Made by a program: the position numbers and the translations under genes
Shown: piece after piece, positions 1 through 52,867 of the stretch
Numbering within the stretch: the stretch's first letter is position 1
Layout of the letters: the number at the start of each line of letters is the position of its first letter
Assembly (NCBI GenBank): GCA_944381215.1
Contig: CALWKF010000003.1
Span: 1-64,000, forward strand
DNA: 64,000 bases
Direction: 5' to 3'
Source: an uncultured Clostridia bacterium
Lineage (GTDB): Bacteria; Bacillota; Clostridia; Christensenellales; UBA1242
The notes under the pieces: generated by a model
Database searches by the model: none
The model's input: only the letters and a program-made list of their open reading frames with translations
Told to the model about the DNA's origin: nothing

Positions 1-22
1 TTTTTAAGTACTATGCAAGATT

Positions 23-4451: not shown

Positions 4452-4853
4452 ACTTCGCCTCGCTTTTTTTACTTTAAATTTAGCAAAATTTCAATTAAAA
4501 GTCAATTGAATGTCTAACAAAACCCCTCGAGTATTTTCAATCGGTTAATAATAGGTCATTCTGAGCCCGCCCCACGAAGCCTTTAGACGAAGGATCTATT
4601 CCTCTAAAAAACCACAAAAATAGTAAAATTTTAAAAAGATTTTTTTACACAAACGCGAAAAAGGTGCAAGTTGCGAAAAAATTTCTTTTAAATTATAAAA
4701 TGCTAATGTTTTTTGCTTTACTCTAAAATTTAAAAATGTTATACTATTTTATCAAAATGTAGGTTATTTTGCCGATTTTTACTAACAATAATTAAATAAT
4801 CTGCAAATATTGCTAAATAAAAAAGTTAGAGTTTTTTAAAATAGGAGGGAATT
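4452..4853. other. Intergenic region with one dispersed-repeat copy
   Basis: About 400 bp between divergent genes. Bases 4552-4605 hold one copy of a host dispersed repeat (TCATTCTGAGCCCGCCCC, then AGACGAAGGATCT) that recurs at 7036 and 7170. The right part is A+T-rich and ends in AGGAGGG, the ribosome-binding site of the secreted protein at 4854. Confidence 0.6.
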
Positions 4854-6974: not shown

Positions 6975-7321
6975 GAGGTGGTGGGTAGCCTCGCACGCGG
7001 TAGGGGGAGTTGAAAGATATTAGTAAAATTTACTTGGTCATTCTGAGCCCGCCCCTCGAAGCCTGAGACGAAGAATCTCATTCCTGCCACTTAAAGAGGC
7101 CTCGGGGCTGGCGCGAGAGCATTCTTTTCTAATTAAAGTAATCACTCACGCGCCAGACTTCCCGCAAGCGGGAAGGCATCCTGAGTGTCGACCCGCGTTA
7201 GCCCTCAGACGAAGGATCTCATTCCTGCCTCTTAATGCGCAGGGAAGAAAAATTAAATACTTATAAAGTTTCAATTAAATGCAAATAAATATAAAAAATA
7301 ATTAAAAAAGGAGGTAACATT
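6975..7321. repeat. Intergenic cluster of dispersed repeats and hairpins
   Basis: Two copies of the dispersed repeat flank a hairpin region. One (7036-7090) starts TCATTCTGAGCCCGCCCC. The other (about 7170-7231) contains CAGACGAAGGATCTCATTCC. Between them CTGGCGCG (7108-7115) pairs with CGCGCCAG (7149-7156), and CTTCCCGC (7158-7165) pairs with GCGGGAAG (7168-7175). The block lies between the two paralogous secreted-protein genes. No ORF is supported. Confidence 0.65.
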
Positions 7322-9115
7322 ATGACAAAAATCACGCGTGGGTCCGTGATCTTGTTTAGCTCCATTCTAGGTATTGCCCTCTTAATCGGCGCGGTAGCTG
7401 TTTTTTCTTCTTCTTTAATGTATCCGGTCAGCGCGGCTTCAGTGTATTTTTCTAGTAATGAGTTGACAGGTACAAATGGAACTTGGAATGGTAAAGGTAG
7501 AGTTTACATTTATACTGATAATACTTATATAAATTCTATATCGTTTTCAGGGTTTACTATTGATGATGGCCCAGGTAATGATTATTTCAGTTGGACAGGG
7601 CAGTTTACTATTAATTTAAAATCAGGTTGTGGTTGGAACCCTAGTTTTACTTCAATAACAGGGAAAGGAAGTACTGCGTGGAGTGATACAAACTCTAGCA
7701 GCAATGCACAGACTACTGCCTATAATAGTGCTATAAATGGTACCTCGTTAACATTTAGAAGAAGTGGTAATACTTTTACATTATCAAGTGGAACTATACC
7801 TAAAAGTGATGATGTGACATCGAGTGGGGGAAGTTATGCATATGGTGCATATGTCTTAATTTTAAATGACTTTAATAATCAAATTGGTTATAATATTTCC
7901 GCCAGTGTTTCAAATGATAATGCAGATAAGGCTACGATTGACAAATCAAGTGACTTCTATATGATTGCACAAAACACCCAACACACCTTTATTTACACGG
8001 CTAATGCTGGTTATTCAATCAGCATGGTAAAGATTAATAACGCAATTGTAGCAATTTCCGAAGTGCAGCCCGAGGAATTTGCCTATGCAGTTGGTTGTGA
8101 ATATAAATGTTTTAGAGATCAAAATCAAGTTTATGTAATAGTTACCGGTTTGTGGGAGGATGTAACAATTGAAGCCTCGTGTGATATATTATTTACAACA
8201 AACACCCTCACCACAGACCTACAGGTCGTTTCATCATCGGCGACCAGTAGCGGCAGCACCCTCGATGCCCGAATAATTTTGCAGTACAACTGGACACCGA
8301 ATGTGCGCTTCCGCCTGGACGGGGGTGAGTGGAATCAGTTGGTCGGCTCCAACGGCGGTGGAATTTTGGGCACCTCGACCTATTCGTTCAGTCGCCACGA
8401 AGCCAAATTTTACATAATTATCGAAATCTACGGCCTTAGCCAGACCACGCACTCGGTCGAGGTCGACTACTACGCGGGCGGGGGCGGAGGCATCACCCCG
8501 AGTGTGTACAACAATTCGGGTTACGCTACTTTCGAGCAGTATGTCGACGACAACATCACACGTGTCGTGGTTACTCCCGCCTCTAACACCTACGTGACCG
8601 CCCTCTACATCGACAACGTGCGCTTCCCCGTGCAGTACTACCGCGCTGAGGTCTTCGGTGCTGGTATGGCGACCGCGATTCAGTACATCGCACACGAAAC
8701 AAACAACACCTTTGTGGTCCTTGCGCAAGACGTTTATCGCGCCATGGCAATCGAGTTCGAGCTCTCCAATTCCTTGCCGACTTTGCAGGAGCCCCCGAGC
8801 TCGGGTGGAACCCTGCTGACTGGCACCGTGGCAACCGCGAGTGCGGGAGGGGAGGTGCGCATGACTGGCTTTAATGGCGACGAAACCGAGAACAGTACCC
8901 TGCACTTTGTCGCGCTCGCGTACAGCGGGTACGAGTTTGCGGGGTGGCAGGTCGACGGCGAGATTTTGGAAGGTTACAGCGCAATCGCGGACATCCCTTA
9001 CAGCCTCGTTGACGGCAAGATTGTAACGGCGGTTTTCGAGCCCGCAAATTCCAACAACTCCGGCAACTCCAACGGCACCCTCGATGACCCCATAAATAGC
9101 GCAGATATTCTATAA
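7322..9115 (+). CDS. Secreted surface protein, paralog of the preceding gene
   Basis: A 597-residue exported protein. Its first eight residues (MTKITRGS) are the same as those of the gene at 4854, followed by a very similar hydrophobic signal core and a VSAAS cleavage region. It shares the C-terminal Listeria-Bacteroides-type repeat (AYSGYEFAGWQVDGE, IVTAVFEP) and the terminal ADIL. The variable middle is shorter. The same composition switch occurs, here near 8220. The ribosome-binding site AGGAGG is strong. It probably arose by tandem duplication and then diverged in the exposed region. Function is unknown. Confidence 0.8.
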   Translation: MTKITRGSVILFSSILGIALLIGAVAVFSSSLMYPVSAASVYFSSNELTGTNGTWNGKGRVYIYTDNTYINSISFSGFTIDDGPGNDYFSWTGQFTINLKSGCGWNPSFTSITGKGSTAWSDTNSSSNAQTTAYNSAINGTSLTFRRSGNTFTLSSGTIPKSDDVTSSGGSYAYGAYVLILNDFNNQIGYNISASVSNDNADKATIDKSSDFYMIAQNTQHTFIYTANAGYSISMVKINNAIVAISEVQPEEFAYAVGCEYKCFRDQNQVYVIVTGLWEDVTIEASCDILFTTNTLTTDLQVVSSSATSSGSTLDARIILQYNWTPNVRFRLDGGEWNQLVGSNGGGILGTSTYSFSRHEAKFYIIIEIYGLSQTTHSVEVDYYAGGGGGITPSVYNNSGYATFEQYVDDNITRVVVTPASNTYVTALYIDNVRFPVQYYRAEVFGAGMATAIQYIAHETNNTFVVLAQDVYRAMAIEFELSNSLPTLQEPPSSGGTLLTGTVATASAGGEVRMTGFNGDETENSTLHFVALAYSGYEFAGWQVDGEILEGYSAIADIPYSLVDGKIVTAVFEPANSNNSGNSNGTLDDPINSADIL

Positions 9116-9117
9116 TT

Positions 9118-9157
9118 AAAAAATCGCAGAATTAACTTGCGATTTTTTATTTTTTTA
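9118..9157 (+). terminator. Intrinsic terminator
   Basis: AAAAAATCGCA (9118-9128) pairs with TGCGATTTTTT (9138-9148) and is followed by more T residues, directly after the stop codon of the second secreted protein. Confidence 0.85.
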
Positions 9158-9273
9158 AAAATTGCAGGTATATGCCTAAAAAATGCAACTATATGACAAA
9201 AACTTGCGGGAATACTACATAAATAAATAAAATATTTAATCTCAAATAATATTGCGAAGTTTAGGAAATAAAC

Positions 9274-9302
9274 TTGAATAATAAAGAAAAACATGCTATA
9301 AT
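9274..9302 (+). promoter_or_regulatory. Sigma-A promoter abutting sufC
   Basis: TTGAAT (9274-9279), a 17-bp spacer and TATAAT (9297-9302). Transcription should begin near 9308-9310, which coincides with the in-frame ATG at 9309. No Shine-Dalgarno precedes that codon, so the mRNA is predicted to be leaderless. Confidence 0.7.
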
Positions 9303-9308
9303 ATGCGT

Positions 9309-10034
9309 ATGCTTACATTAAAAAATATTAAATTTTCGGCGCAAGAAAACGGCGAAAAAGTGATTTTAGAGAATATTAGTTTTGAATTCCGCACGGGGAT
9401 GAATTACGTCATCACGGGCGCGAACGGCTGTGGCAAGTCTACCTTGGCAAAAATTATTATGGGAATTTTCCCAAATGCTGGCGGGCAGATTTTGTTTAAC
9501 GGGCAGGACATCTCAAACCTAAGTATCACCGAGCGCGCGAGACTGGGCATCGGCTTTGCCTTTCAACAGCCCGTACGCTTTAAAGGAATAACGGCTAGGA
9601 TGTTGCTCGAGCAGGCGAGTGGCAAGAAGTTAACCACCGCCGTTGCTTGCGACTATCTATCCACCGTGGGGCTGTGCGCTCGGGACTACCTTGACCGCGA
9701 ACTAAACAGCACCCTCTCTGGTGGCGAGTTAAAGCGCATCGAGCTTGCCTGCGTGCTGGCGCGTGATTGCCCCCTAAATATTTTCGACGAGCCCGAAGCG
9801 GGCATCGATATTTGGAGTTTTAACAGCCTCGTAGACATTTTCTCAAAGCTAAAAAGCAAAAACCGCACTAATATAATTATCAGCCACCAAGAAAAATTAT
9901 TTAGGAGTGCTGACGAGATTCTGTTGATTAAGGGCGGAAAAATCGCGCTTTCTGGTGCGCCCAGCGAGATTATGCCGAAACTTCAAAATTTTGGAAATTG
10001 CGATAGATTGAGGGGTGAAAATGGACAAAATTGA
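9309..10034 (+). CDS. sufC: Fe-S cluster assembly ATPase SufC
   Basis: An ABC ATPase of the SUF iron-sulfur assembly scaffold, working in the cytoplasm with a SufB/D protein. It shows Walker A GANGCGKST (about 37-45), a Q-loop FAFQQP, signature LSGGELKR, Walker B with the SufC-typical FDEPEAGID, and the H-loop ISHQE. I chose the ATG at 9309 because transcription is predicted to start there; an in-frame ATG at 9303 lies between the -10 box and that point. The last codons overlap the start of the SufB-like gene, indicating a tight operon. Confidence 0.9.
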   Translation: MLTLKNIKFSAQENGEKVILENISFEFRTGMNYVITGANGCGKSTLAKIIMGIFPNAGGQILFNGQDISNLSITERARLGIGFAFQQPVRFKGITARMLLEQASGKKLTTAVACDYLSTVGLCARDYLDRELNSTLSGGELKRIELACVLARDCPLNIFDEPEAGIDIWSFNSLVDIFSKLKSKNRTNIIISHQEKLFRSADEILLIKGGKIALSGAPSEIMPKLQNFGNCDRLRGENGQN

Positions 10035-12530: not shown

Positions 12531-13451
12531 TTATTTTTCAATTTTTTTATCATTTGTAGCGGTTGTCTTTGCCTTGTTCGGCTCTGGAATAGTGATTGCC
12601 TCTTTTAGACTTGCAAGTAGGCCAGTAACATTTGCGATGTCCGTGGGGACAATTAACTTGGTGCTCTCACCGTCAGCGACTTGGGCGAGTGCCTCGTAGC
12701 CTTTTAGCGTAAGGTAGGCTTCATCAGGGTGCGCATCCACAATCAACTTGATTGCGTCAGCCATACCCTCGGCCTCCTTGATTTGGGCAATTCGCTTTGC
12801 CTCAGCACGCAAAATCTCGGCCTCTTTTTCACCTTCGGCAACTAGGATGTTACTGCGCTTTTCACCCTCGGCACGAAGGATAGACTCACGACGTTCACGT
12901 TCAGCACGCATCTGCTTTTCCATGGCCTGCTGAATGTCCTTTGGTGGCAAAATGTTCTTTAACTCCACGCGATTGACCTTGATACCCCAAGGATTAGTGG
13001 CCTCGTCGAGAACAAGGCGCATTTTACTGTTAATCGTGTCGCGCGAGGTGAGGGTGCCGTCGAGCTCGAGTTCACCCACGATGTTACGCAAGGTCGTCGC
13101 TGTCAAGTTCTCAATTGCTGACAATGGGCGGTCGACACCATAAGTGTATGCCTTCGGGTCGGTGATTTGGAAGTAAACGACCGTGTCAATCTGCATCGTA
13201 ACATTATCTTTTGTGATAACAGGCTGGGGCTTGAAGTCCTGCACCTGCTCCTTTAAGTTTATTACATCGCCAGCCCTACGGTCGAAGAAGGGCACGATCA
13301 TGTGTATACCTGTGTCTAGTACGCGGTGAAATTTACCAAGTCGCTCAATGACCATAGCAGTAGATTGGCGCACAACCTTAATGCTAAACCCAAGTATAAT
13401 GAACGCAACTATCGCGATTACGACAATTACAATAATACCTGCTGTACTCAT
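12531..13451 (-). CDS. SPFH/stomatin-like membrane protein (QmcA type)
   Basis: A 306-residue protein with an N-terminal transmembrane helix (about 5-25), an SPFH/prohibitin domain (about 26-185, with VRQSTAMVIERLGKF and VDRPLSAIENL) and a long charged helical region (RAEGEKRSNILVAEGEKEAE). Such proteins form membrane microdomain scaffolds. The NfeD-type gene directly upstream in the same direction is the usual partner, which supports the call. Confidence 0.92.
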   Translation of the reverse strand: MSTAGIIVIVVIAIVAFIILGFSIKVVRQSTAMVIERLGKFHRVLDTGIHMIVPFFDRRAGDVINLKEQVQDFKPQPVITKDNVTMQIDTVVYFQITDPKAYTYGVDRPLSAIENLTATTLRNIVGELELDGTLTSRDTINSKMRLVLDEATNPWGIKVNRVELKNILPPKDIQQAMEKQMRAERERRESILRAEGEKRSNILVAEGEKEAEILRAEAKRIAQIKEAEGMADAIKLIVDAHPDEAYLTLKGYEALAQVADGESTKLIVPTDIANVTGLLASLKEAITIPEPNKAKTTATNDKKIEK

Positions 13452-13550
13452 ATTTAACTCCTTTTAATCTAATAAATATAATATTTCAAAATATTATCAA
13501 AAATTAATAAAAAATCGTAAAAAATTGATTAAAAACTGCAATTTTTCAAT

Positions 13551-13626
13551 GCATAGTATTTAAAATTTACTTGCATAGTATTTTAATTTAGTATGCATAG
13601 TACCTAAAATTTATATGCATAATACT
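13551..13626. repeat. Array of four TGCATAGTAC-type motifs at 21-22 bp spacing
   Basis: TGCATAGTAT (13551), TGCATAGTAT (13572), TGCATAGTAC (13594) and TGCATAATAC (13616) are direct repeats with starts 21, 22 and 22 bp apart, about two helical turns. They fill the gap between the NfeD-like stop and the SPFH start. The motif also occurs at 7-17, 32066, 40660/40681 and 42308/42331. Confidence 0.75.
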
Positions 13627-14302
13627 ATTTTTTGCTTGTTTTAGATTTTGTAGTGGTAGTTTGTTTTTTAGTTTTTGTGTTAGCACGTTTTGTTTCTTTC
13701 TGTTCGGTCATGTTTTCAGTTTCTGTAACTGGCACTTTGATTTCTGCTGTATCAGTAGCATTTTCGATGTCGGCGGTCGTGCGCTCGATTTCAACAGTTT
13801 CAGTGTCCTCCGCGGGCACGGTAACATCGCCGTCAATCTTGATGTCGCCACTTTTTTCAATTTCCTGCTCCACTCCCGAAAGCGCGCGAGCCACGAGTTT
13901 ATTTCCCTGTACTTCCTCGACGATTACGGTGGTGCCTTGTTTTAGTGCTTGCTCATCTTGAATTACGACAGACCACACAATATCACCAATGCGCGCGGTA
14001 CTCTCGCCATTTTTGACATCTTCAAGAAGTTTGACTTTACTGCCAACCAAAGCATCGACATTGGTCTTCGCATTGTCTTTTTTAAGTAAAAAGCGTAGAC
14101 ACAGCCTCCTAAGTGACAAGAGTAGCACGAGCGACACAATTATACAAGTAATTATCTGCCATTCGAGTGGTACATCGACTGCTGCCATGATAAGTGCAAC
14201 GAACCCGCCGACCACGAACCAAATGCCCGCCATTTGTAGTGTAAGAGCTTCGACTATCGCGCTAACACACACGACAGCGAGCCAAACATAAATCATTACC
14301 AT
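13625..14302 (-). CDS. NfeD-like membrane protein
   Basis: A 225-residue protein with two or three N-terminal membrane segments (about 3-70) and an NfeD-type OB fold (about 85-150, ALVGSKVKLLEDVKNG, ARIGDIVWSVV). A long Thr/Glu/Lys-rich tail, probably disordered, ends in basic repeats. I chose the ATG at 14302 because AAGGGGGG lies before it and a TATAAT box lies about 20 bp further up. NfeD proteins associate with SPFH proteins at membranes, matching the downstream gene. Confidence 0.85.
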   Translation of the reverse strand: MVMIYVWLAVVCVSAIVEALTLQMAGIWFVVGGFVALIMAAVDVPLEWQIITCIIVSLVLLLSLRRLCLRFLLKKDNAKTNVDALVGSKVKLLEDVKNGESTARIGDIVWSVVIQDEQALKQGTTVIVEEVQGNKLVARALSGVEQEIEKSGDIKIDGDVTVPAEDTETVEIERTTADIENATDTAEIKVPVTETENMTEQKETKRANTKTKKQTTTTKSKTSKK

Positions 14303-14800
14303 ATTTTCGATCCCCCCCTTGGGAGTATTATATAATATATATGATAAAATTACAATGATTTTTTCCATTATTTCTAAAATATTTTTACAGCGCGTATTAA
14401 AGATAAAATGAGGCCGAAAACAAGCCCTAATTATATAGTAATTTTGCCTTTATTAAAAAATTTTTAAATTTAGCAAAATTTTTAGAGGGAAAAGGAGGTT
14501 TGCCTGCGTATATAATTAATAACATTTTAAAATTGCTAGTTTAGTCTATAAAAAATGCTAGTTTTAGTAATCAAAAAGTCGCTAGTTTTTAATTAAAAAT
14601 ATAATTTTATTTAGATTAAATTGCTAGTTTAATAAAGAATGATAAAACCGCTAGTGTTGTAAGTCATTTAATTATAATAAAGGATGATTACCAATTAAGA
14701 CTATCTGCTTTTTACTAGATTGCAAAACTATTTAATTAGTCGCTAGTTCCGCAAGAAGCGCGCTTGGGGGACGGTTTATTTTTTCATAAAAGGAGAAAGT
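14303..14800. promoter_or_regulatory. Upstream region of the dnaG operon with six GCTAGT boxes
   Basis: This gap of nearly 500 bp holds GCTAGT at 14535, 14557, 14581, 14623, 14650 and 14742. The first three are 22 and 24 bp apart and read TGCTAGTTT or CGCTAGTTT. The NfeD promoter lies at the left edge, and AAGGAG before 14801 is the dnaG ribosome-binding site. No ORF is supported. Confidence 0.55.
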
Positions 14801-31757: not shown

Positions 31758-32123
31758 CCTAGCATTAACAAGATAAAACACAAGTAAAACTAGATTAACT
31801 CTAAAACTACAAAATTAAATGCTGGAAAATAAACATAATATTAAATTACAAGATTGAGCATAAGCAACATAATTAAAAACTATTCTACAAATCAAAAAGC
31901 CTAGTACGAAAACTAGGCTTTTTTGTGTATTGAATCAAAAATAGTAAAAATGTGGAAAAAAATTCTAAAAAATTATCGAAAAATAATTAAAAAAATTAAA
32001 GAAAATTTTTGTTTATTAGAAGTTTAAAAAAGCCGAAGCAAAATGCCTCGACTTTTGTTTTTTAATGCATAGTACCTTATTTTTGCGGGAAAATAGCAAA
32101 ATTTTACGGTATTATGCACTATT
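31758..32123. other. Intergenic region after groEL
   Basis: 366 bp. It holds the groEL terminator (31895-31924), an imperfect second hairpin (about 32031-32053, AGCCGAAGC with GCCTCGACT) followed by T residues, and one TGCATAGTACC motif (32066-32076). No ORF is supported. Confidence 0.5.
31895..31925 (+). terminator. Intrinsic terminator of groESL
   Basis: AAAAGCCTAGT (31895-31905) pairs perfectly with ACTAGGCTTTT (31912-31922), followed by T residues. Confidence 0.85.
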
Positions 32124-32558
32124 TTAATCGATTTTTATTTTGTTGCAGGTGTCGCTAAAGGTTTGCATAGTACCGCCATTTAGGTCGAGATAGTAGCACC
32201 TGCCCGTGTATTCATTTTCAACTTCGCGAATAACATTAAACCCTTGAAAACTTGGGTCGACCTGTATAAGTAGGGAATTAAACGGCATCTCGCTGTGCTC
32301 CATTTGCTCTGGAAAGTGGAACTTTACCCAAACGCCAGTCTGCATTGCCTCAACAGTTAATTTGTGCATACTCACGCCGAAAGCGGGCATCTCGTTCGAG
32401 TCGTGAATCATCTCAATAAAGCCGTCTAAGATTTCGGTATACTCCTTAGAGTCCTTTTCAAAGGTTCGGCTCTTTCCGTCTTTATATACGGTGATTCGAT
32501 TACTGTTTGTAAAAAAGTCGTAAAGTCGATAATCTTGTAAAAAGTTGATTGTACCCAT
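32124..32558 (-). CDS. Hypothetical protein, 144 aa
   Basis: Not recognised. A soluble alpha/beta protein beginning MGTINFLQDYRLYDFF. It contains no cysteine pair or catalytic signature I can name. AGGAG precedes the ATG. An exact TGCATAGTACC motif lies inside its 3' part (32164) and another just after its stop (32066). Confidence 0.68.
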   Translation of the reverse strand: MGTINFLQDYRLYDFFTNSNRITVYKDGKSRTFEKDSKEYTEILDGFIEMIHDSNEMPAFGVSMHKLTVEAMQTGVWVKFHFPEQMEHSEMPFNSLLIQVDPSFQGFNVIREVENEYTGRCYYLDLNGGTMQTFSDTCNKIKID

Positions 32559-40453: not shown

Positions 40454-40825
40454 TATTTAAAAAGAATTTATTTCCTAATAATTAAACAATTTTCTAAAAT
40501 TAAATTGAAAATAATATTTAAAATTATATTTAATTTCAATTTTAAAATACAAAAACCACGAAAATAAAATTCGTGGTTTTTTAATTAAAATTGATAAAAT
40601 TTGTGTAAAAAATGCGATTTTTTAGTAATTTTTCGTTATTTTTTATTATTTTTATTAATTGCATAGTACTTAATTGAAATTGCATAGTACTTATTTTTTT
40701 TATCATTTTTTTATAATTTTCCAATATTTTTTTCATAATTTTTACTATTTTTTATATTTTTTCGAATCTTTATTTTTTAGCATTTTCAAATTATTTTTTC
40801 TAATTTTTTAGTATTTTATGAGTTT
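40454..40825. other. Intergenic region between convergent genes
   Basis: 372 bp, extremely A+T-rich. It holds a terminator (40551-40582, AAAAACCACGAA with TTCGTGGTTTTTT) and two TGCATAGTACT motifs 21 bp apart (40660 and 40681). No ORF. Confidence 0.6.
40551..40584 (+). terminator. Intrinsic terminator
   Basis: AAAAACCACGAA (40551-40562) pairs with TTCGTGGTTTTT (40570-40581), followed by T residues. Confidence 0.8.
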
Positions 40826-42088: not shown

Positions 42089-42394
42089 AATTTACCTCCT
42101 TATGCTAAAATATTTACCAAAACCATTGTTTTTTAAACCATAAAATTTGCACTAAAAACCAACTAACTTTTTGCCTCTCAATAAATGAATAACACTACCT
42201 TTAACTTCTAATCTTATATAGTTAAAAATAATTTCATAATATTTCTTCTAATTTATAAATAATATAATGAAATTTGATAAAAAAATCGATAAATTAACGC
42301 ATTTTTAGGTACTATGCATTTAGTTTTAATTGCATAGTATTGACTTTAAAGGGCTTTTTGGATATAATTTATAAAAACGAATAGGGGAAGGAAA
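42089..42394. promoter_or_regulatory. Divergent regulatory region with inverted TGCATAGTA pair
   Basis: GGTACTATGCA (42308-42318) and TGCATAGTAT (42331-42340) form an inverted pair. The second runs straight into the -35 TTGACT (42340-42345). The -10 TATAAT (42363-42368) follows after 17 bp, then GGGGAAGG before the GTG start at 42395. A DNA-binding protein at this pair would touch the promoter. Confidence 0.7.
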
Positions 42395-52194: not shown

Positions 52195-52498
52195 AAACAC
52201 TCCTTAATAAATAATGGTAACCGTGCAATAAGGGTAGTCAAGAAAAAATTTAATAAATATAAATACCGGAATAAATATGTTAACTTAAAGTTTATTAAAT
52301 TTTATCGCACGGAATTGTAACCGCTATGCACAAGGAGGGGGTGCATGACGAAACCACCAAAAACATAGCGGAATGGTAACCGCGTGGAAAAAAGTAAGAA
52401 AGGAAGTTAGACAAAACCAAAAAGAACTAAAAGAGAAAAACCACGCGGAATGGTACAGCAACCACTATAGCAGGTTAGACTGATTACCGCCTTTATTA
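52195..52498 (-). promoter_or_regulatory. Multi-hairpin leader in the phage virion operon
   Basis: About 300 bp with three long-range stems in series: CCGTGC (52221) with GCACGG (52307), CCGCTATG (52321) with CATAGCGG (52364), and CCGCGTGG (52380) with CCACGCGG (52441). Each right arm is followed by AATGGTA or AATTGTA on the plus strand (ACCATT in the mRNA). A further block (52452-52488) matches that before the coat gene. A second candidate for the phage packaging or origin region. Confidence 0.6.
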
Positions 52499-52867
52499 TT
52501 AAAATGGCATTGGCTCGTTAGTTTCAACTACTTTCGAACATACAGCAGTTAAGTCCACACCATCGCGAATAAGTTTATAAAACTTGTAGTCTGTTTTGTC
52601 TCCGTATTCGTGGACATTGGCAGTGATTTGTAGTTTGTCGAACCTAGTTAACTTGCCTAACAGTTGTGCCACATCAAAAGAAGGCTCTTTGATTGAAGTT
52701 ATGTACTTAACTTTACCGCTGGAAAGGTCGTTATCTCGCACATCGATTAACAAAGTTAATACTAACTTTTTAGTCCCAATGGGAACCCATTTGTCCCCCT
52801 CTTTTTTAACTTCGTCCTGCAAATTTGCGTTTAATAAATAAACGTCTTCAAATAACATTTTGTTCAT
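52499..52867 (-). CDS. Phage hypothetical protein, 122 aa (ssDNA-binding candidate)
   Basis: Not recognised by motif. A beta-rich protein (KKLVLTLLIDVRDNDL, FDKLQITANVHEYG) of the size and map position of filamentous-phage single-strand DNA-binding proteins, upstream of the virion genes. That assignment is by position only. AAGAGG precedes the ATG, and a GCCGA/TCGGC hairpin with ACCATT lies in the leader. Confidence 0.5.
   Translation of the reverse strand: MNKMLFEDVYLLNANLQDEVKKEGDKWVPIGTKKLVLTLLIDVRDNDLSSGKVKYITSIKEPSFDVAQLLGKLTRFDKLQITANVHEYGDKTDYKFYKLIRDGVDLTAVCSKVVETNEPMPF

Follow-up and report, generated by a model that had tools for sequence, protein, structure and literature searches.

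Rickettsia palindromic elements can sit in-frame inside coding genes, the core of Haemophilus uptake signals is flanked on one side by phased AT tracts, and the sites of LytTR regulators recur with periods of 21–22 bp. Every bacterium is expected to have DNA gyrase. In E. coli, the gyrase motif is 130 bp long and consists of a symmetric, degenerate core with AT/GC flanks of about 50–65 bp that are periodic at 10.75 bp, and gyrase sites are overrepresented both downstream of transcribed operons and in some of the BIME-2 elements (PMC6379681).

The repeat described here, the asymmetric and near-invariant decamer TGCATARTAY, can be set beside each of these systems. The E. coli gyrase motif is its closest known physical analogue, with 10.75-bp periodic flanks and enrichment past gene ends in common; membership in gyrase sites is not claimed, because the gyrase core is symmetric and degenerate. 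Like the REP/BIME elements of enterobacteria, the decamers lie at transcription-unit ends (at 3′ ends, with 5′ regions avoided), are depleted upstream of genes, form clusters of mixed orientation, and possibly have a topological role. Unlike REP/BIME, the repeat has a decamer core in helical register within curved, AT-rich DNA, occurs as single or direct copies of an asymmetric word instead of a GC-rich palindromic hairpin with a GTAG-type head, and has no RAYT partner. As with Rickettsia palindromic elements, some copies are in-frame in protein genes (GlmS and others), but the decamers are mostly intergenic and form arrays instead of one long palindrome.

The window, i.e., the whole 64,000-nucleotide stretch analyzed (contig CALWKF010000003.1, positions 1–64,000), belongs to an uncultured gut Clostridia bacterium of the order Christensenellales, whose genome (G000) comprises 1.22 Mb in 22 contigs. 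The sequence-only reading of this DNA had described a word of 10–11 nucleotides present four times in one gap. The period of this array is exactly 22 bp, with starts at 13550, 13572, 13594, and 13616 (one base lower than first given); the fourth copy, TGCATAATAC, differs from TGCATAGTAC at a single position and overlaps an NfeD-like gene's stop codon by one base. The array runs from that stop codon toward a Band_7 (SPFH) gene, as follows.

12531–13451, minus strand: SPFH/Band_7 gene (PF01145), downstream of the array
13452–13549, no strand: AT-rich stretch separating the array from the Band_7 gene; A/T tracts recur about every 10–11 bp
13550–13559, plus strand: decamer copy 1 of the 22-bp array, TGCATAGTAT
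13572–13581, plus strand: decamer copy 2, TGCATAGTAT
13594–13603, plus strand: decamer copy 3, TGCATAGTAC
13616–13625, plus strand: decamer copy 4, TGCATAATAC
13625–14368, minus strand: NfeD-like gene (PF01957), upstream of the array

Where G000 has four copies in the NfeD–SPFH gap, its relative G004 has two, 22 bp apart and starting at the same stop codon, and the gaps of G002, G006, and G008 contain no decamer copies. The other places first listed in the window were all recovered, together with one copy that had been overlooked (32109). Of all these copies, only the one at 32164 is situated well inside an ORF of >100 aa.

8–17, minus strand: single decamer, 5 bp beyond the stop of a DegV-family gene
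32066–32075, plus strand: decamer, 308 bp beyond the end of a GroEL-like gene
32109–32118, minus strand: decamer TGCATAATAC, 43 bp from the 32066 site
32164–32173, plus strand: decamer within a 144-aa ORF
40660–40669, plus strand: decamer between convergent genes
40681–40690, plus strand: decamer, 21 bp from the 40660 site
42309–42318, minus strand: left arm of an inverted pair
42331–42340, plus strand: right arm of that pair (22 bp), adjoining a −35/−10-like sequence that belongs to a methyltransferase-like gene

Another repeat dispersed in intergenic DNA, of the GATCCTTCGTC ... CATCCTGAG type, is present in the window at 4586–4596 and 7208–7218 (minus strand). It has many copies in loci L034–L050 and in G004 loci, and its 8-mers are strongly over-represented, with about 28–31 copies in 65 kb of G000 gaps and more in G004. 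A different dispersed repeat, around CTCACCCC, is found in G006.

The decamer far exceeds the frequency expected from base composition. The window contains 10 exact copies of TGCATAGTAY (12 with the R variant, TGCATARTAY), compared with 0.23 ± 0.49 in dinucleotide shuffles (maximum 2). Genome-wide, G000 contains 156 copies of TGCATARTAY vs. three of the reversed control word, and 107 copies of TGCATAGTAC vs. none of the reversed controls, so that a composition-level frequency is excluded; overall density is about 0.13 sites per kb. The word is also strict. Intergenic DNA of G000 has 51 copies of TGCATAGTAC, and among the 30 possible single substitutions only 7A (nine copies) and 10T (14 copies) are frequent, all others occurring zero to three times. 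These two transitions also dominate in G006, G004, and G023, the last of which has 1C in addition (four copies). An ordinary set of transcription-factor sites would be expected to be less strict than such a word.

In a survey of 247 genomes of one Christensenellales family, dense occurrence is limited to two genera, g1 (up to 107 exact copies) and g16 (121, 81, and 43 copies). The g1 congener G003 has three copies only; counts reach about 16 in genera such as g6, g9, g13, g14, and g18, with several g13 copies again forming inverted pairs at gene ends, and many genera have none (part of the G025 counts is an artefact stemming from a repetitive coding gene). The repeat is not explained by RAYT, LytTR, phage, or any published match. 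A viral contig collection yielded no inverted arrays, only one 16-mer palindrome and seven isolated direct pairs (one per contig), and the array region had no match in phage records; a phage origin is rejected on both grounds. In the literature the decamer or its complement was found only in papers of unrelated title, and Rfam gave no match at the sites examined. Sites of a LytTR regulator are rejected, as PF04397 has no match in G000. The RAYT family (Y1_Tnp, PF01797) has no member in G001, G002, G004, G006, or G023 and only broken pieces in G000 (see the following line); it does not track the motif, and a RAYT-driven REP system is therefore rejected.

L050, about 9008–9339 (= G000 C8:29007–29338), minus strand: broken Y1_Tnp gene (REP-associated transposase family)

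Neighboring sites keep a helical register. Across five genomes of the genus, spacings cluster at 6, 10–13, 20–25, 42–46, and 50–55 bp in direct or inverted orientation, no neighbors are spaced by 14–19 or 26–29 bp, and periodicity at 10.5 bp is highly significant (Rayleigh p ~ 4e-24). In G023, from another genus, neighboring sites keep this register less well (p about 0.002; 21 pairs, 13–14 bp being common). The suggestion that a spacing of two helical turns places the copies on one face of the DNA is thus strongly supported, and reaches half, one, two, four, and five turns in both orientations; an absence of periodic spacing is excluded.

The decamers are in addition phase-locked to A-tracts, a regularity that the sequence-only reading did not foresee and that strengthens the idea of protein binding. 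Measured from the centre of the decamer, A-tract peaks lie near ±11, 21.5, 32, 42.5, and 53 bp, i.e., A-tracts recur every 10.75 bp across about 55 bp per side with a phase near zero to that centre. Periodic power at 10.75 bp is 8.4 for 136 clusters (one site each), which are not all independent because orthologous clusters of sister species are included. Controls give at most 1.8 for nearby random positions and at most 1.9 for GC-containing, tract-free decamers (300 draws each), and none of 300 reaches 8.4. At isolated sites the series is stronger on the GTAC side. The phase-lock is also detected, more weakly, in G023, where the flanks are unrelated. Intergenic gaps without sites are likewise A-tract phased (G000, G004), which indicates that curved intergenic DNA is the background in which the decamer replaces one A-tract, and that the register may in part be a feature common to such gaps.

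Placement is biased to gene ends. In 367 kb of G000, where the reversed control word is absent, ORFs of ≥150 aa (271 kb, or 74% of the DNA examined) contain 13 sites, and the other 96 kb contain 87; the resulting densities of 0.048 and 0.90 per kb differ 19-fold, and although both are inflated in absolute terms because the stretches were chosen around sites, their ratio is still informative. When sites are placed relative to gene ends and promoters, as had been proposed at the outset, density falls from convergent (1.6 per kb) through codirectional (1.0 per kb) to divergent gaps (0.5 per kb) in G000, G004, G006, and G023, which speaks against promoter operators. Several arrays start ≤5 bp from a stop codon, the sites have no association with intrinsic terminators beyond gene orientation, and the flanking genes are mutually unrelated and mostly housekeeping. 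The original idea of a protein array on one DNA face is consistent with the helical spacing and the A-tract phase-lock; an ordinary operator array is unlikely because the sites avoid promoter regions.

The gap between rsmG and parA is decamer-rich in G023 and about average in G000, and a link to oriC is rejected on the latter value. This gap is without long ORFs over about 2.2–2.3 kb (L135 4813–7115 in G023; L039 8048–10237 in G000), contains DnaA-box-like sequences in G023, and is probably part of the replication origin. A long GATA/GTTA tandem repeat is located near a contig end (L135 12088–12205).

Arrays turn over at conserved places. In orthologous gaps of G000 and G004 (83% median protein identity), sites are present in both genomes in nine cases, in one only in four (three and one), and in neither in 59; for G000 and G001 (75% identity), the respective numbers are three, 11, and 48. 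Within shared gaps the arrays are rearranged, and sites persist with exact decamers while flanks diverge. At L044 8625, where the gap can otherwise be aligned, a small number of substitutions created or destroyed one site. Some copies within one genome have homologous flanks of 45–75 bp (e.g., 50 bp at 96% identity in G006), which indicates that copies also arise by duplication or insertion. A partner motif, AA.T.T.CGC[AT]AA, is found near a site 20 times (1.1 expected), on the TGCA flank of the site and for the most part separated from it by 5–7 or 18 bp. In the form TTTTGCGMAKASTT, at a near-fixed distance from the decamer, it is common to two genera.

L046 1736 and 17985; L032 11755; L036 6834; L141 12323: loci of partner motif TTTTGCGMAKASTT

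Some arrays lie in-frame within genes, namely those for GlmS, a flippase-like protein, and a 275-aa membrane protein (with similar linkers). GlmS, an essential enzyme, has in G000 (L033 5853–7727) 36 residues where that of E. coli has 10, and the 26-residue excess coincides with the array, which encodes part of it. The same loop in G000 and G001 holds different arrays with differing copy numbers.

The reading preferred here, with a probability of roughly 0.5, is that of a lineage-specific interspersed repeat whose core is the predicted recognition site of a DNA-bending or DNA-wrapping protein. Its unit would be the decamer, single or in direct or inverted arrays on one helical face of intrinsically curved DNA. 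A putative sequence-specific protein may dock on the decamer, with the phased A-tracts wrapping on the protein. Arrays may grow by duplication of 11–12 or 22 bp units and may spread as insertions or duplications, at times entering genes in-frame. From register, phase, and placement, we infer an architectural or supercoil-related role, potentially supercoil constraint or boundary marking at transcription-unit ends rather than action on individual promoters. Against this reading, the motif is dispensable to G003 and to most of the family, gaps without sites are A-tract phased as well in G000 and G004, and the homologous flanks of some copies would also fit a functionless repeat.

A candidate binder belongs to the HU family. 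A second HU-family gene adjoins the canonical one in motif-rich genomes and is missing in G003; in G000 the two genes occupy C6:52036–52305 and 52431–52700.

L048 3431–3700, minus strand: second HU paralogue, fast-evolving, next to the canonical HU gene

Among 35 genomes (G000–G034), in which related species are not independent, this tandem pair goes with higher site counts (Mann–Whitney p = 7e-5), and counts are higher where the second copy is more divergent (rho = −0.77); outside g1, the association of the pair is marginal (p = 0.05). The pair is present in 11 of the 12 genomes examined that have at least 15 sites (not G153) and in one of the 28 zero-site genomes examined (G009), a contrast confounded by relatedness, as only two clades are involved. 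In a second sample, chosen by site count, genera g16, g9, g2, and g3 agree, and several genomes with 6–16 sites are without the pair. It speaks against the paralogue that the second HU proteins of G000 and G001 are only 39% identical, the first being 98% identical, while the decamer is invariant. IHF/HU sites resemble the repeat as bent DNA with A-tracts, and the divergent paralogue tracks motif abundance; the decamer differs from the IHF consensus, and the paralogue lacks the NPxTG arm tip, which also counts against it. That the paralogue binds the decamer is no more than a lead. One tentative and, on the whole, rather improbable proposal is a dedicated sequence-specific chromatin system in which a fast-diverging HU/IHF paralogue or another wrapping protein docks on a strict decamer phased in curved gene-end DNA, with arrays at whole helical turns.

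As the foremost alternative, the repeat would be a selfish short interspersed element of the REP/BIME or Rickettsia palindromic type, without host function and mobilized by some enzyme whose binding mode, or slippage copying of 11–12 bp units, accounts for the helical spacing. The homologous flanks, in-frame insertions, patchy distribution, and intergenic and 3′ bias are consistent with such an element, against which stand the RAYT survey, the exact decamers beside diverging flanks, and the A-tract phase-lock in the unrelated flanks of G023. It is possible, if doubtful.

Preferred (strong) wrapping sites of DNA gyrase, relaxing positive supercoils at gene ends, would share the period and gene-end placement of the decamer sites. 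This is an unlikely explanation, as the decamer core is strict and asymmetric, A-tract phasing at 10–11 bp is common in bacterial DNA, and the enzyme, unlike the motif, is expected in all bacteria. Less likely still is a DNA uptake sequence for natural transformation, although a strict dispersed word common to two genera, inverted pairs at gene ends, phased AT tracts, and a ComEC gene recall the Haemophilus and Neisseria systems. Unlike those sequences, which are dispersed in coding and non-coding DNA, the decamer is rare in long ORFs and low in density; uptake sequences are not known to form helically phased, one-face arrays, and ComEC, being near-universal and equally present in motif-free genomes, was discarded as an uninformative marker. 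That the sites are operators of a classical transcription regulon is most improbable and is rejected, since the flanking genes share no theme, divergent gaps are the poorest, and many sites lie between convergent genes or at stop codons; in its favor, one site, at 42331, abuts a promoter-like sequence. RNA hairpins or terminators are the least probable reading, and terminators are rejected: inverted pairs at gene ends can fold, but direct arrays and singles are equally common, and the link to terminators does not go beyond gene orientation.

Sequence reading by most bacterial nucleoid proteins is loose. By contrast, a strict word that is dispersed through a genome and locked to the helical phase of curved DNA at transcription-unit ends would make sequence-directed architecture of a bacterial chromosome directly testable, with the decamer as a well-defined bait for its protein. 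The repeat is also a short element that changes in copy number yet stays in helical register, within coding sequences such as glmS too.
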